Below, piece after piece: positions 53,561-59,794 of a DNA stretch of 64,000 nucleotides. The notes beneath the pieces are model-generated. The model saw only the letters and a program-made list of their open reading frames with translations. It did no database searches and was not told the DNA's origin. The number at the start of each line of letters is the position of its first letter. The first letter of the stretch is position 1. Source of the stretch: a bacterium HR11 (GTDB taxonomy: Bacteria > Acidobacteriota > HRBIN11); NCBI GenBank assembly GCA_002898535.1, contig BEHN01000001.1, positions 1-64,000 on the forward strand, written 5' to 3'. Position numbers and translations under genes: made by a program.

Positions 53561-53587
53561 ACCGCAGATCCGTGGGGGTGGGATGCA

Positions 53588-53613
53588 TAGGGGCGACCGG
53601 CCGGTCGCCCCTA
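53588..53613. repeat. Perfect 26-bp palindrome TAGGGGCGACCGG / CCGGTCGCCCCTA
   Basis: Two 13-bp arms with no spacer, between ssb and the kinase operon. It has the look of the GGGGCGACC-type intergenic palindromes found scattered in many bacterial genomes. It may serve as an operator or terminator for either side. Confidence 0.75.
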
Positions 53614-53797
53614 CGGACGTTCGAGAAGGACCTGTTACAATAGGACGACGGTGCGCCCGGGGCACGGGTCGTTGTACTTCCAACACCCGGCATCGGAGAC
53701 CGTTTGTAGGTTATCCCTGCCGGGCTTTTCAAGTAGGCGCATGGGGATCGGTGAGAAGGGGACTCGGGTCCCCGACTCGAAAGTCGGAGACGACCGG

Positions 53798-54151
53798 ATG
53801 ACCCCACGGGACGAGACCTTGGAACATGCCCTGGCGACCCTCCGGACCATGGTCGACCGGACGCGGCGCCGCCTGGCGATCGAACGGATGGGAACCGACG
53901 GCCGGCAGGCCATGCGACTGCTTCGGTGTCCCTTAGACGGCCTTGTCGCCGGCGTCCTGTATGCCGTGGGTGGGCGCATGGCCGTGCGACAGCTCTACCG
54001 GTCGGGTCGCCTGCCGGTCGTCCCCTTCCGATACGAAAGCCGGGTCGTCGTCCTTGAACTTTTAAAGGGGGCTCCCCCATGGACGGAGATTCAAGCGCAG
54101 GCGTTGGCATGTTTGCGCCGGCTCGGGAATATCTCGGAGTCCCAGACATGA
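53798..54151 (+). CDS. Unknown small protein, first gene of the kinase/ATPase operon
   Basis: 117 residues from ATG 53798 (GGAGA site). Mostly helical with DETLEHALATLRTMVDRTRR and a hydrophobic stretch (LDGLVAGVLYAVGGRMAVRQ) that is too short for a sure membrane helix. It shares a 4-bp ATGA overlap with the kinase gene, so it is part of the same translational unit. I recognise no family. Confidence 0.65.
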   Translation: MTPRDETLEHALATLRTMVDRTRRRLAIERMGTDGRQAMRLLRCPLDGLVAGVLYAVGGRMAVRQLYRSGRLPVVPFRYESRVVVLELLKGAPPWTEIQAQALACLRRLGNISESQT

Positions 54152-55056
54152 AAATGATCTTCGTTTCCTCGCTATCGGAGGAGGCTCATCCCCGGCGGGT
54201 CCTCCACGAGACGGGTCCCCTGCGGGTCATCGTCCCAGCCCACGATCCGTACGCCGACTTGGTCGAGTCCCTTTGTCGGCAACGGGGTTGGGAATGTCGG
54301 CGGGTCGAGCGGCACGTCGTCGGGGACGTGGAGCTCCCCCTGGGTCCGCCCTTCGTGTTTGTGGAATCGCTTCGCCTCCTCTGTCGGGGGACGGTCTCGA
54401 TGGTCTACGAGGCTTCCATGGGCGAAGGCATCATCGTCCTAAAACAGATCCCCCTGGACGCCGGGATGGACCATCCCGTGAAGTATCTTCTGGCTTCTCA
54501 GGAGGCCAAGCTGTTGGTCGGCCTGCGGTCGCCCTGGACGGTGCCCGTCCTGGGCACGGGGACGACGCCGTCGGCCATCTGGATCGCCATGGAGCGGATG
54601 GACGCCACGCTGGACCGCTGTCTGGAGGTCCTCGACGCGGCGGCCCTCAGCCTCGTCCTGGCCGACGCCTGCCGGGGCCTTGCGTTCCTCCACGCATCCG
54701 GTTGGGTCCACATGGACGTGAAGCCCCAGAACATCTTCGTCCATCAGGGACGGGGCCGTCTGGGGGACTTTTCGGCGATGTGGCGGCGCGACGTGTGTCT
54801 GCCGATTTCCCTTCGGGCCCTCACGCCCCGGTACGCCGACCCCCGGCTGATGCGACCGGAGGGCCGCATCCTGGAGGCTGTCCCCGAGTTCGACGTTTAC
54901 TCGATGGGCGTCGTCCTGCGGGAACTCGTCGAGAAGGGCCACCTTCCCGAGACAGTCCGGGACCTCGCCCAACGGTGCCTGGGGAGTCGGCGGCCCTCGG
55001 CCGAAGAGCTGGCGGACCGTCTGGAGGAGCTGAGCCATGCTGGACGTCATCCTTGA
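54148..55056 (+). CDS. Eukaryote-like Ser/Thr protein kinase
   Basis: 302 residues. A ~75-residue N-terminal region of unknown fold is followed by a kinase domain: GTVSMVYEA loop, VLKQIP with the ATP lysine (~K99), catalytic loop VHMDVKPQNIFV (Asp 190, Asn 195; His-Met-Asp instead of His-Arg-Asp), DFS at 207-209 instead of DFG, and a C-lobe ending DLAQRCLGSRRPSAEELADRLEEL. Likely active despite the changes. No membrane helix, so cytoplasmic. It overlaps both neighbours (4 and 20 bp), tying it to the PilT-like ATPase downstream. Confidence 0.8.
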   Translation: MKMIFVSSLSEEAHPRRVLHETGPLRVIVPAHDPYADLVESLCRQRGWECRRVERHVVGDVELPLGPPFVFVESLRLLCRGTVSMVYEASMGEGIIVLKQIPLDAGMDHPVKYLLASQEAKLLVGLRSPWTVPVLGTGTTPSAIWIAMERMDATLDRCLEVLDAAALSLVLADACRGLAFLHASGWVHMDVKPQNIFVHQGRGRLGDFSAMWRRDVCLPISLRALTPRYADPRLMRPEGRILEAVPEFDVYSMGVVLRELVEKGHLPETVRDLAQRCLGSRRPSAEELADRLEELSHAGRHP

Positions 55057-56248
55057 CGCCATCTATGACCGTTGTGTCGAGCTCTGGGTCACCGACCGGG
55101 GCTACTACGTCGTGTCGGCCCCGACGGGCCACCTGGAGACCCTCCCAGAGCTGGCCGACCTCCGGCCGGACCGCCCCGTCGAGGCCCTGTGGGAGGAAAT
55201 CCGGCACCAGTCCAGCCTCCTGATCCCGGCGGACGTGCCCATCGAGACGGCCGTCTGGATTGACGCCCAGGGACGCATGTGGCGGGCGACCTACTTTCGG
55301 TCGATTCATGCCATCGTCGTCCTCCGTCGGGTCGGCTTTCCCTTCACGACGGCCGACTACCCGGAGCCCTTCCAGCGGTTCGTGCCGACGCTAATCGGGG
55401 AGGGTCGGGGCCTGATCCTCATCGGCGGCCCCATCGGAGGCGGCAAAAGCGCGCTGCTGTCGGTCTTCCTGCGAGAGCTCATCCGTCAGCCCGTCGGGAT
55501 CGGGATCTACGAGGAAAGCCTGGAGCTGGACCTGCCGACCGACCGGGCCGTCGTCTTCCATCGTCTCCGCGGCGTCCACTACCAGAACCTGGCCGAGGCG
55601 TTGGAGAGCGACCGCCGGGTCATGCTCCGGGCCGTCGCCGTCCAAGAGGTCACCGAACGGGACGTCCCGGCCCTGTTGCACCCGATTCGTATGGGCCGTC
55701 TCGTCCTGACGACGATGCACGCCGTCTCCCTTCGGGAACTCCTGCACCGCCTGAGTCAAGCCGTCGGCGGGTCGGCCGTCCTGGCCGACATCCTAACGGC
55801 CTTGATCATGGTCCACCTGCGGCTGGGCCGAGAGGGCCAAGTCATCCCCGTACCGTCCATTTTCCGGCCGACCGGGAGCGTGCGGGTCTCCCTCGAGCGG
55901 GGCGACCTGGACGGAGCCATTCAGGCCCACGAACATGACCGGGAGGGGCTCGACAACCTGCCCGAATCGGTCGTCCTGAGTTGGCTGGAGGCCCAGGGCT
56001 GGATTGAACCTGAGTCGGCCTTCCACCTGGGTCGAACGTATATCCAGGAGGTCCACGGCGGGGGAACCATCCGACGGATGATCCCGGGCGGCCTGGGTGT
56101 TCGGTTCTCGGCCAAGGTCCAGGTCCAAGCGGGCGTGGTCAGCGTCCTCCAGATGCGACCCTTCCGAGACGAGGAAGCGTGCGCCTGTATCCAGGCGGCG
56201 GCCCGCTCGTGGCCCGACGGGTTTTACCAGGTCGAGCTGACGGAGTGA
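55037..56248 (+). CDS. PilT/GspE-like secretion ATPase, divergent
   Basis: 403 residues. Walker A is GGPIGGGKSALLSVF (K137, S138). The His box is VLTTMHAVSLRELLHRL, typical of PilT-family motors. The Asp box (IYEESLELDLP) and Walker B (DRRVMLRAVAVQEV) are altered relative to PilT, so ATP turnover may be changed. The C-terminal ~120 residues differ from PilT. Embedded between a kinase and unknown proteins and 28 kb from the true pilBTC cluster, so it is more likely a separate system. Confidence 0.72.
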   Translation: MLDVILDAIYDRCVELWVTDRGYYVVSAPTGHLETLPELADLRPDRPVEALWEEIRHQSSLLIPADVPIETAVWIDAQGRMWRATYFRSIHAIVVLRRVGFPFTTADYPEPFQRFVPTLIGEGRGLILIGGPIGGGKSALLSVFLRELIRQPVGIGIYEESLELDLPTDRAVVFHRLRGVHYQNLAEALESDRRVMLRAVAVQEVTERDVPALLHPIRMGRLVLTTMHAVSLRELLHRLSQAVGGSAVLADILTALIMVHLRLGREGQVIPVPSIFRPTGSVRVSLERGDLDGAIQAHEHDREGLDNLPESVVLSWLEAQGWIEPESAFHLGRTYIQEVHGGGTIRRMIPGGLGVRFSAKVQVQAGVVSVLQMRPFRDEEACACIQAAARSWPDGFYQVELTE

Positions 56249-56273
56249 GACCCTCGGGGTCGGGGGGTGGAGG

Positions 56274-56708
56274 ATGCATTACATCATCCGGTATCCGGTC
56301 AGCTACGGGAACGTTCAACCGCCGGGCATCGCTTTCGTCGACCACTGCATGCTCACGATGACGACCCACCGGGCCATCATCGTCCCCCAGGCCGCCTTGG
56401 TCCTGCCCATCGTCGACCAGCTATGCGCCCTCCAGGCCGACTTTCAGTGCCAGCCTATCCGTCCCTTCTCGCGTCTTCCAGAAGCGACCCACGGATATCC
56501 CCGGGAGGGCCTCTGTAGCTACTTGTACTACCATGTCCTCCAGTCCCGGGCCCCTTATGCCCTGCTTCAGCAGGACGGGGTTCGTCCTGTCTTCGTCCGC
56601 CTCTTAGACCGAGAGTATCCGGTCGCCCAGAATCAGGTCATCGTCACTCGAGAAACCGTCGTCATCGAGTTCATCGAACCCTCGCGAGTGCTGGTATGGC
56701 CGGAATGA
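56274..56708 (+). CDS. Unknown protein, fourth gene of the kinase/ATPase operon
   Basis: 144 residues. MHYIIRYPVSYGNVQPPG opens the protein; mixed alpha/beta composition and no membrane segment or known motif that I can place. It starts 26 bp after the ATPase stop and overlaps the zinc-binding protein gene by 13 bp. It has a GGGGTGGAGG site. Confidence 0.6.
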   Translation: MHYIIRYPVSYGNVQPPGIAFVDHCMLTMTTHRAIIVPQAALVLPIVDQLCALQADFQCQPIRPFSRLPEATHGYPREGLCSYLYYHVLQSRAPYALLQQDGVRPVFVRLLDREYPVAQNQVIVTRETVVIEFIEPSRVLVWPE

Positions 56709-57544
56709 TTTGCCCTACGTGCCTAAACCGCATGGACGGGACCTGTCCCTTACACGGGGGATTTCTATGTGAACGCTGTCGGCAATGTTACTGCGAGCAT
56801 CGAGAGGAACTCCTGCAGGCCGACGTGTTCGACGCCATTGACATGGGCCTTTATGAACAGGACCCGGCCTTCTGGCAGGCCCTCCAGGCCGTCCCCTGCC
56901 GTTTGGAGGGGGATCGCATCTTCTGCCTCTACGTGCCGCGGGGCGAGCCGGTCGCCGAAATCCGACGAGCCATCTCAGAACATTTCTTAGTCCGACAGGT
57001 ATTTCTGAAGCCGACCCCATCCATCCCCGAACTTCCGGTGGCGGCTCCCCTCTACATCGCCTGTACCGGACGACCTGGAGCCGGTTGGTTGATCCCGGCG
57101 GAAGGTGCGCCCCGCCCATGGCCGGAGCACATGAACACGCCGGGGCTCCCGATCACCGAGGACTGGTATGAAATTCCAACGCCTGTCCGGGTCCGGCCCG
57201 AGTGGACGGACTTGATCCGGTCCCATCCCCGATGCCGTCTCTACACGCCGCCCTTCCCGCTGGCCGTCTCAAAGGCCATCCTGGACGCCGATTCCCATAG
57301 CGTCTGGATGTGGCACGGCCCCTTCCGGGCCGTGGCCGCCTACATCAGCGTGCCCGCCGTCCCGGTGCCCCACCCCTGGGGAAGCGTACGCGTGATTCGA
57401 TGGCGCCACCCGGGTTGCGTCGATATCCGGTCGGCCGAACCCCGGCCTGCCGTCGTGGCCGTCTGTACGGTCACGCCGGTGGTGGACGGACCCGCCATCC
57501 TCTTAGAGGTCGGCCTTCGGCGTATCCTTCACCGGCGCGGTTAG
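56696..57544 (+). CDS. Unknown protein with an N-terminal cysteine-rich zinc-binding module
   Basis: 282 residues. Residues 6-33 carry CPTCLNRM, CPLHGGFLCERCRQCYC: seven cysteines plus a histidine in treble-clef or zinc-ribbon spacing. The rest (about 45-282) has no family I can name; segments such as PLYIACTGRPGAGWLIP look globular. Last gene of the operon; ATG 56705 (MICPTC) is an alternative start. Confidence 0.6.
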   Translation: MAGMICPTCLNRMDGTCPLHGGFLCERCRQCYCEHREELLQADVFDAIDMGLYEQDPAFWQALQAVPCRLEGDRIFCLYVPRGEPVAEIRRAISEHFLVRQVFLKPTPSIPELPVAAPLYIACTGRPGAGWLIPAEGAPRPWPEHMNTPGLPITEDWYEIPTPVRVRPEWTDLIRSHPRCRLYTPPFPLAVSKAILDADSHSVWMWHGPFRAVAAYISVPAVPVPHPWGSVRVIRWRHPGCVDIRSAEPRPAVVAVCTVTPVVDGPAILLEVGLRRILHRRG

Positions 57545-58219
57545 GCCGGTCAGCTCGACTGGCCATCCTGGGGGCATCCACCTGATAGTAGTCACGTCCG
57601 CAGTAGGCAGACCGCTTCCCTCGTGCGCGGGCCCTCCCCCGCCGCCACCGCCGCAACCACACGGCCACCACCACAAGGTAGACGCCACCCGCCCACCCTC
57701 GCCGGGGTTCTCGGCGTACGGCCCTCTGCCGTCCGAATCGTCGCGATGCGCGCACCGGCCGTCGGCCGGACAGAACGTTCGAAGCCCTCTAACAAGTCCC
57801 ATGCCATTGGAGACACCGGCCCGTCCGACGCCGCTCCCCACGACATCTGAAGACTCCCGGAATCCCGGCCTCGACCGTCCCCCGCGCCGATACGTGTCGA
57901 CCCCGTTCGACACGGTGTCGATCCCGTTAAACACCTTCAAAACCGGGTCCCGGGTTCCAGAAAGGGGGAGGGGGAAGACCGACAGCCTGTTTCAAAACTC
58001 ACCGCCGAGGCGCAGAGGACACAAAGGACGAGGGTTACTCTTCGATTTTTCTCTGCGTTCTCGGCGTCTCAGCGGTGGAATGGAGGTTTTGAAATACGCT
58101 CGAGAAGCCGGGATTTCAGGACTGGCTGACGGGGAAAAGGAATTTTGAAACGAATTTCAAACACCCGGCGGCGTCCAACGAGCCCGGCCTCTTTCCCGAA
58201 ATCACCCCGCCGGCAGACC
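57545..58219. other. 675-bp convergent gap without a supported gene
   Basis: Short Arg/Gly/Pro-rich frames exist on both strands but none shows family motifs or a ribosome site. It contains two adjacent copies of GTGTCGA(C/T)CCCGTT near 57895-57930 and the large inverted repeat 57990-58094. Confidence 0.6.
57990..58094. repeat. Large inverted repeat with CGCAGAG words
   Basis: TTTCAAAACTCACCGCCGAG (left) and GTTTTGAAA preceded by GGCGTCTCAGCGGTGG (right) form a long stem of about 30 bp with GCGCAGAG/CTCTGCG inside. It lies between convergent genes. The words resemble CGCAGAG-type intergenic repeats seen across several phyla. Confidence 0.75.
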
Positions 58220-59794
58220 CTACACCAGGGCCCCCAGGGGGACGAGGCGCCGGTAAGCCTCCCGGTACTTCTCGATGGTCTGCCGGACGACGTCCGGCGG
58301 GAGGGGCGGCCCCGGCGGCTGTTTGTTCCAGCCGAGACGGCTCGTGTAATCCCGCACGTACTGCTTGTCGAAGCTCGGCGGCGTCCGGCCCGGCTCGTAG
58401 AGGTCCTTGGGCCAAAAGCGAGACGAGTCGGGCGTCAGGAGCTCGTCCACGATGTAAATCTGTCCCTGCTCGTCGGTCCCGAACTCGAACTTCGTGTCGG
58501 CGATGAGGATCCCCCGCTGTTCGGCGTACTCGGCGGCCTCCCGGTAAATCTGGAGGCTCCAGTCCCGGAGCGTCTCGGCCGTCTTCCGACCGACGAGGCG
58601 GGCGACCTCGTCGAAGGTCAGCGGCTGGTCGTGGCCCGTCTCGGCCTTGGTCGTCGGCGTGAAGACCGGTTCCGGCAGGCGGTCGGCCTCCCGGAGGCCC
58701 GGCGGCAGGGCCACGTCCAAGATCCGACCCGTCTCCCGGTACATCTGCCAGCCGCTCCCCGTGATGTAGCCCCGGACGACACACTCGACGGGGAATACCT
58801 TGAGTTTGCGGACGAGCATGACCCGTCCGTCCAGGTAGGGGTACCGCTGGCCGAGGCCGTCCGGCAGGTCGGCCAGCCGGGTGCTGACCAGGTGATGCGG
58901 GAACCGGTCCTGGAACTTCCAAAACCAGAAGGCCGACAGGGCCGTCAGGATGCGACCCTTGCCGGGGATCGGCGTCGGCAGGACGACGTCAAAGACGGAG
59001 ATTCGGTCCGTGGCGACGATCAGGAGATGGTCGCCGAGGTCATAGATGTCCCGGACCTTGCCCCGCTTGAGGAGCGGGACGCCCTCCAGGCGGGTCTCCG
59101 CCAGCCCCGCTTCCGCCTCCATCAAGGTCGAGACCCAGGGCGCCCCTTGAAGGACCTGCGTTTTCTGACGAGACCGGAATTCTTCCAAATCCGCCTGAAG
59201 CATCGGATAGCCAATTTGCAAGATGCGGGCCGCCAGGAGGGCCGCATTCGCCCCGGCGTCGACGCCGACGCCGGCGACGGGTACGCCCGGCGGCATCTGC
59301 ACGATCGACAGCAGGGCGTCCAGGCCCGACAGCATCCCCGACCCGATGGGAACCCCGATGACGGGCCTCAGCGTGTGGGCCGCCAAGACGCCTGGCAGAT
59401 GGGCTGCCATCCCGGCGGCGGCGATGAACACCTGCACGCCCCGGGCCTCGGCGTTTCGCACGTAGGCGACGACCTCGTCGGGCGTCCGATGGGCCGACAA
59501 GACGACCGTCTCGTAAGGAATCCCGAGCTGATCCAGGGTTTCCTGACATCGGGCCAGCTTCGGGAGGTCGTTGGCCGACCCCGTGACGATGGCGACGAGG
59601 GGGTTCCGATAGGCGTCGGCCCCGCTGTGCACGTAAATGGCTACGCCGGCCCGGCGAGTCGTCCCGATGGGCGTGACCGTCACGGTGACGTCTTCCCCCA
59701 GCCGGTACGTCCCGCCTTGGACGAACCACTGGCCCCGCCGTTCGACTTCCTCCAGGTAACGAATCAGGTCTTGCAAGCGCGAACCTGAGGTCAT
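58220..59794 (-). CDS. PurE-PurC fusion: AIR carboxylase/mutase plus SAICAR synthase
   Basis: 524 residues. About residues 65-225 are class I PurE: LVAIVTGSANDLPKLARCQE, VLSAHRTPDEVV, GMAAHLPGVLAAHTLRPVIG. Residues about 240-524 are PurC: KRGKVRDIYDLGDHLLIVAT, DRISVFDVVLPTPIPGKG, CVVRGYITGSGWQ, DTKFEFGTDEQG. Catalyses two successive purine steps. Vertebrate PAICS has the opposite domain order. The first ~60 residues (QWFVQGGTYRLGEDVTVTV) are an extra domain that I do not recognise. GGAGG site upstream. Confidence 0.88.
   Translation of the reverse strand: MTSGSRLQDLIRYLEEVERRGQWFVQGGTYRLGEDVTVTVTPIGTTRRAGVAIYVHSGADAYRNPLVAIVTGSANDLPKLARCQETLDQLGIPYETVVLSAHRTPDEVVAYVRNAEARGVQVFIAAAGMAAHLPGVLAAHTLRPVIGVPIGSGMLSGLDALLSIVQMPPGVPVAGVGVDAGANAALLAARILQIGYPMLQADLEEFRSRQKTQVLQGAPWVSTLMEAEAGLAETRLEGVPLLKRGKVRDIYDLGDHLLIVATDRISVFDVVLPTPIPGKGRILTALSAFWFWKFQDRFPHHLVSTRLADLPDGLGQRYPYLDGRVMLVRKLKVFPVECVVRGYITGSGWQMYRETGRILDVALPPGLREADRLPEPVFTPTTKAETGHDQPLTFDEVARLVGRKTAETLRDWSLQIYREAAEYAEQRGILIADTKFEFGTDEQGQIYIVDELLTPDSSRFWPKDLYEPGRTPPSFDKQYVRDYTSRLGWNKQPPGPPLPPDVVRQTIEKYREAYRRLVPLGALV

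Follow-up and report, generated by a model that had tools for sequence, protein, structure and literature searches.

PilT and PilU are the ATPases of type IVa pilus retraction, and PilU works only through PilT. In motors of the type IV pilus kind, a hexameric ATPase has to be paired with a PilC-like platform (PMC6858323). The HIS-box histidine and the Asp-box glutamate of PilT contact ATP and magnesium, the substitution E204A or H229A abolishes twitching, and T221 in the HIS box of Geobacter PilT makes open and closed interface contacts (PMC6858323). PilU lacks the AIRNLIRE motif (PMC6762196). Here we describe an operon, found in an acidobacterium from a hot spring and in its near relatives, that encodes a strongly altered member of this ATPase family together with a Ser/Thr kinase. 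The operon is real, undescribed, and narrowly distributed, and it probably represents a module with a control or accessory role in the cytoplasm, not a complete new motor.

The window (the first 64,000 nucleotides of contig BEHN01000001.1 of bacterium HR11, whose genome is 2.99 Mb) contains, at 53798-57544, five intact plus-strand ORFs that overlap or are close-set (Table 1). Genes 1 and 2 overlap by 4 bp, genes 2 and 3 by 20 bp, and genes 4 and 5 by 13 bp, and a gap of 25 bp separates genes 3 and 4. A five-gene operon with these overlaps had been proposed in a sequence-only reading of the window. Its ORFs are confirmed, and the question raised there of whether the genes are found together in other genomes is answered by the sister species (contig JAUQPV010000043.1, Acidobacteriota bacterium JZ-1.bins.94), in which all five are intact, with identical order, overlaps, and flanking DNA. 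The operon is distinct, as had also been held, from the pilBTC cluster of type IV pilus motor genes, which lies 28 kb away. It is flanked by minus-strand genes that we named from their translations (ssb, a phoH-like gene, and an HD-domain gene upstream, and a purE/purC-type fusion downstream), and no other plus-strand gene at the locus is convincingly part of the unit. Nothing useful came from scans for promoters, terminators, or Rfam families. The intergenic stretch 3' of the operon (window 57544-58226) is about 690 bp long and that of the sister species (locus L041, 9743-9918) about 175 bp, so that about 0.5 kb has been gained or lost. Upstream of the operon, window 53586-53664 has no blastn match to the sister species, and the sequences on both sides of it match at 94-95%.

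Table 1. Genes of the operon, with window coordinates and amino-acid identity to the sister species
Gene	Coordinates	Strand	Length	Identity	Description
gene 1	53798..54151	+	117 aa	92%	no family match
gene 2	54148..55056	+	302 aa	94%	Hanks-type Ser/Thr kinase; Pfam Pkinase
gene 3	55037..56248	+	403 aa	98%	divergent PilT-family hexameric-type ATPase; Pfam T2SSE
gene 4	56274..56708	+	144 aa	97%	no family match
gene 5	56696..57544	+	282 aa	92%	N-terminal Cys/His cluster, zinc-binding type; remainder without relatives

A third genome of the genus has a contig that breaks off within gene 4; gene 5, which is 84-85% identical, lies on it beside the same purE/purC region. Genes 1-3 are beyond the contig end, and no gene 3 turned up in the rest of that genome, which reflects either loss or an assembly gap. 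Between the window's genome and the sister species, dN/dS for genes 1-5 is 0.56 (from few changes), 0.20, 0.09, 0.16, and 0.13, and the values for the other two reading frames are 0.7-6. Four of the five genes are clearly under purifying selection, which is strongest in the ATPase (gene 3).

Outside the genus we found no counterpart of the operon. Matches to gene 3 reach 949 bits in two genus members and do not exceed 48 bits in the remainder of 396 Acidobacteriota genomes from 210 genera, and the loci nearest to it outside the genus contain no relative of genes 1, 2, 4, or 5. Gene 4 occurs in the genus only, among 396 Acidobacteriota genomes, and gene 5 only in the three genus members among 247, the next best match having an E value of 0.001 over 60 residues. 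A scan of 84,980 species genomes, which reaches close relatives only, found the sister-species contig alone. A match from Alphaproteobacteria in the genome-contig search was to an RNase R-like gene and was rejected as a chance match. There were no relatives in plasmids or viral contigs (genes 3 and 5) or in phages (gene 3). Among the genomes searched, a single genus carries the operon; its absence outside the genus is partly a matter of poor sampling, because the class of the source genome has only five genomes in the searched collection.

Gene 3 matches Pfam T2SSE (1.7e-9) above the cut-off and the NCBIfam profile pilT_fam (7e-8) with 32.1 bits, far below the family cut-off of 319 bits. Among single PDB sequences it matches DotB best (E 3e-6), one of the DotB/VirB11-like secretion ATPases, and PilT is also among the PDB matches. 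Yet the structure fits PilT better: the AF2 model (pLDDT 65 overall and about 80-92 in the core) has as its best Foldseek match PilT4 of Geobacter (6ojx, E 1.2e-18), and the operon contains no secretion genes. Sequence, alignment, and predicted structure agree in placing gene 3 in the PilT family.

We aligned gene 3 with 13 PilT-family proteins (15 rows in all). The elements that define the PilT/VirB11-like ATPase superfamily are present, and the Walker A lysine (K137), the Asp-box glutamate (E163), the Walker B glutamate (E204), and the HIS-box histidine (H228) align in 15 of 15 rows. E159 and R238 are also kept, as is the PilT layout from the N-terminal domain through the C-terminal helices. 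Gene 3 shares with PilT and PilU the fold, the domain order, Walker A, the catalytic and Asp-box glutamates, and the HIS-box histidine, and it differs from them in its low identity (about 19-25%), in an extra C-terminal domain of about 70 residues (334-403, with strands and one helix predicted by AF2), and in the absence of pil genes alongside. The sequence-only reading had described a PilT-family ATPase with altered Asp and Walker B boxes, and both the T2SSE match and the alignment agree with it: the Asp box is EESLE in place of EDPIE, and the Walker B region is QEVTE in place of GEMRD. The interface threonine of the HIS box is replaced by M219, nine residues before the histidine, the Walker A threonine is also replaced, and the AIRNLIRE position reads GSVRVSLE, so that this motif is absent, as in PilU. 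To judge from the alignment, gene 3 seems to have retained the ATP chemistry and to have an altered switch between subunits. Gene 3 is probably still able to bind and hydrolyze ATP; PilT-like hexamer switching is doubtful because the HIS-box threonine is a methionine and the Walker A threonine is replaced. It had been asked whether the ATPase would cluster inside ordinary PilT. In our tree, gene 3 sits outside all PilT and PilB rows on a stem of 7.33 changes per site, a placement that is unsure and subject to a long-branch-attraction warning; given this stem, it is probably not an ordinary PilT.

Gene 2 matches Pfam Pkinase (1.6e-19, 70.8 bits) above the cut-off and, when aligned with five kinases, keeps the VAIK lysine, the alpha-C glutamate, the HxD aspartate, the asparagine, and the DFG aspartate. 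Its glycine loop is degenerate, and the profile match and the alignment bear out the eukaryote-like kinase with HMD and DFS (for DFG) variants that had been recognized in the sequence. By these comparisons, gene 2 is a compact Hanks-type Ser/Thr kinase with its catalytic residues in place. Its N-terminal 70 or so residues had no match in family searches. The best PADLOC match is mad6 (74 bits), with PD-T4-6 kinases also listed; against mad6 in NCBIfam, gene 2 scores 45 bits (cut-off 460). These matches reflect the kinase fold only.

None of genes 1, 4, and 5 could be assigned significantly to a family of Pfam, NCBIfam, PHROGs, or PADLOC, nor did PDB sequences give a meaningful match, in keeping with their earlier listing as unknown proteins. 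Gene 5, which had been called cysteine-rich, has eight Cys/His residues in its first 33 (C6, C9, C17, H20, C25, C28, C31, and C33) that are invariant in the three genomes, and this cluster is likely a zinc site. An AF2 model of gene 5 built from three sequences was uninformative (pLDDT 37). MshEN-like half domains suggested by eye in the N terminus of gene 2 and in residues 48-110 of gene 5, and a DUF4388/PATAN-like C-terminal domain suggested in gene 3 by the predicted order of strands and helix, were rejected for want of profile support; MshEN and DUF4388 profiles scored within or below shuffled copies in genes 2, 3, and 5. Elsewhere in the phylum there are long PilT paralogues of 490-580 aa (loci L007, L008, L009, L013, and L068) in which the ATPase is followed by a C-terminal tail resembling a coiled coil.

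Elsewhere in the Acidobacteriota, too, a PilT-family ATPase gene can be closely preceded on the same strand by the gene of a Ser/Thr kinase. In a sample of 109 genomes, 44 have a canonical kinase with a C-terminal zinc ribbon, and in 12 of these it lies upstream of an ordinary pilT2 (loci L131 and L133-L143, in genomes G008, G023, G048, G060, G071, G092, G065, G030, G106, G054, G087, and G017). In three genomes of one family, the kinase is directly 5' of pilT2 on the same strand, with a gap of 4-10 bp. In the other nine, a single same-strand gene lies between them, which from its translation we take to be the branched-chain aminotransferase gene ilvE. The genome of the window still has ilvE next to pilT2, and its zinc-ribbon kinase is on another contig (C8:90804-91745). 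Kinase-PilT linkage therefore recurs in the phylum; because ilvE sits inside it, the string need not be functional. The string shares the kinase-ATPase arrangement with the operon and differs from it in having an ordinary PilT2 and a canonical kinase, little similar to genes 3 and 2, and in lacking genes 4 and 5.

The sequence-only reading had interpreted the operon as a kinase-controlled motor or secretion-like machine. Such machines are usually driven by a PilT-family ATPase, but we consider a self-contained machine of this kind very improbable, and this is the part of the earlier interpretation that is not supported. The family searches found no PilC/GspF platform or pilin among genes 1, 4, and 5, the operon contains no secretin, and its proteins have no evident transmembrane segment (hydropathy peaks at or below 1.93). 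The genome has only three PilC/GspF-type platforms (T2SSF), at C1:27k, C10, and C22; none is near the operon, and they sit with other ATPases (pilB/T, a GspE-type gene, and a PilB-like gene, respectively). Because a type IV pilus-like motor needs such a platform, the operon is unlikely to form a motor by itself; a module of the cytoplasm, whether accessory to an existing motor or free of pili, is likelier. What held of the earlier interpretation is a conserved operon that joins a kinase to a PilT-family ATPase placed, if not securely, outside the ordinary PilT branch. It is improbable that the operon is a genus-specific anti-phage or conflict system composed of a kinase, a P-loop ATPase, a zinc protein, and small unknown proteins. 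It includes diverged proteins of no known family, mad6 is the best PADLOC match of the kinase, and gene 3 has a marginal match to mad8 (E 0.023), but the mad6 match covers the kinase domain only, is no better than the generic Pkinase match, and is far below the curated NCBIfam cut-off. In place of the mad1-8 set with methylation genes that characterizes MADS, the operon offers only these two matches and has no methylase or nuclease; it also occupies the same chromosomal place in three species, as far as the contigs reach, and the plasmid and viral collections hold no relatives of genes 3 and 5, nor the phage collection of gene 3. We likewise give little credence to the idea that the operon arose by duplication of the kinase-ilvE-pilT2 region and has since diverged or is decaying. 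The order and orientation of kinase and PilT-family gene agree with such an origin, but the low dN/dS of genes 2-5 speaks against decay, and genes 4 and 5 have no counterpart in that region. Descent from the string is unsupported, because gene 2 gives only 24 bits against the zinc-ribbon kinase, where other kinases score 109-190, and gene 3 is closer to the PilT of the pilBTC cluster than to PilT2.

The reading we favor, tentatively, is that of a vertically inherited, genus-restricted module in the cytoplasm, in which an accessory ATPase is coupled to a kinase and perhaps acts on the cell's type IV pilus motor. In such a soluble module, the gene 3 ATPase would work with the gene 2 kinase, the zinc-binding-type protein of gene 5, and the products of genes 1 and 4. 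The kinase may act on the ATPase or on its partners, the ATPase would be an accessory or modulator of the pre-existing motor, functionally like PilU, and adaptor roles could fall to the C-terminal extension of gene 3 and to genes 1, 4, and 5. The accessory reading is supported by the overlaps kept between species, by the strength of selection on gene 3, by its PilT layout and catalytic residues together with the PilU-like absence of AIRNLIRE, by the presence in the genome of PilB, PilT, PilT2, and PilC on which it could act, and by the recurrence of kinase-PilT linkage in the phylum. It is weakened by the altered HIS-box and Walker A threonines, by the possibility that the string is not functional, by the fact that genes 2 and 3 are not closest to its members, and by the distance of the operon from pil genes; the connection with pili is its weakest point. 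We found no literature on kinase control of PilT in open-access papers. It is about as probable as the accessory reading, and also short of an even chance, that a PilT-derived ATPase was recruited with a kinase to a cytoplasmic signaling or macromolecule-remodeling complex unrelated to pili, PilT ancestry saying only that the protein is a ring ATPase. The very long stem of gene 3, its replaced interface residues and new C-terminal extension, the absence of pilus genes nearby, and the dissimilarity of genes 1, 4, and 5 to any Pfam or NCBIfam pilus protein family all point this way. However, PilT/PilU relatives of known function act on pili or secretion, and purifying selection shows only that some function is maintained; nothing in the data points to a different partner.

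The accessory reading and the pilus-unrelated one both concern a gene set for which, as the sequence-only reading had held, our searches found no matching described system. It is conceivable, though we think it somewhat unlikely, that the operon specifies an ATPase complex of a kind not described before, regulated by a kinase, in which a PilT-type ring has left pilus biology and acquired three new protein families as partners within one genus. Should gene 3 prove active, it would exemplify, cleanly and in extreme form, the rebuilding of a pilus-motor ATPase for a different task or a different kind of control, in which the chemistry is kept and the subunit-switch residues are changed. The operon and the kinase-ilvE-pilT2 string together provide a testable case for the control of PilT-type motors by Ser/Thr phosphorylation in the Acidobacteriota.
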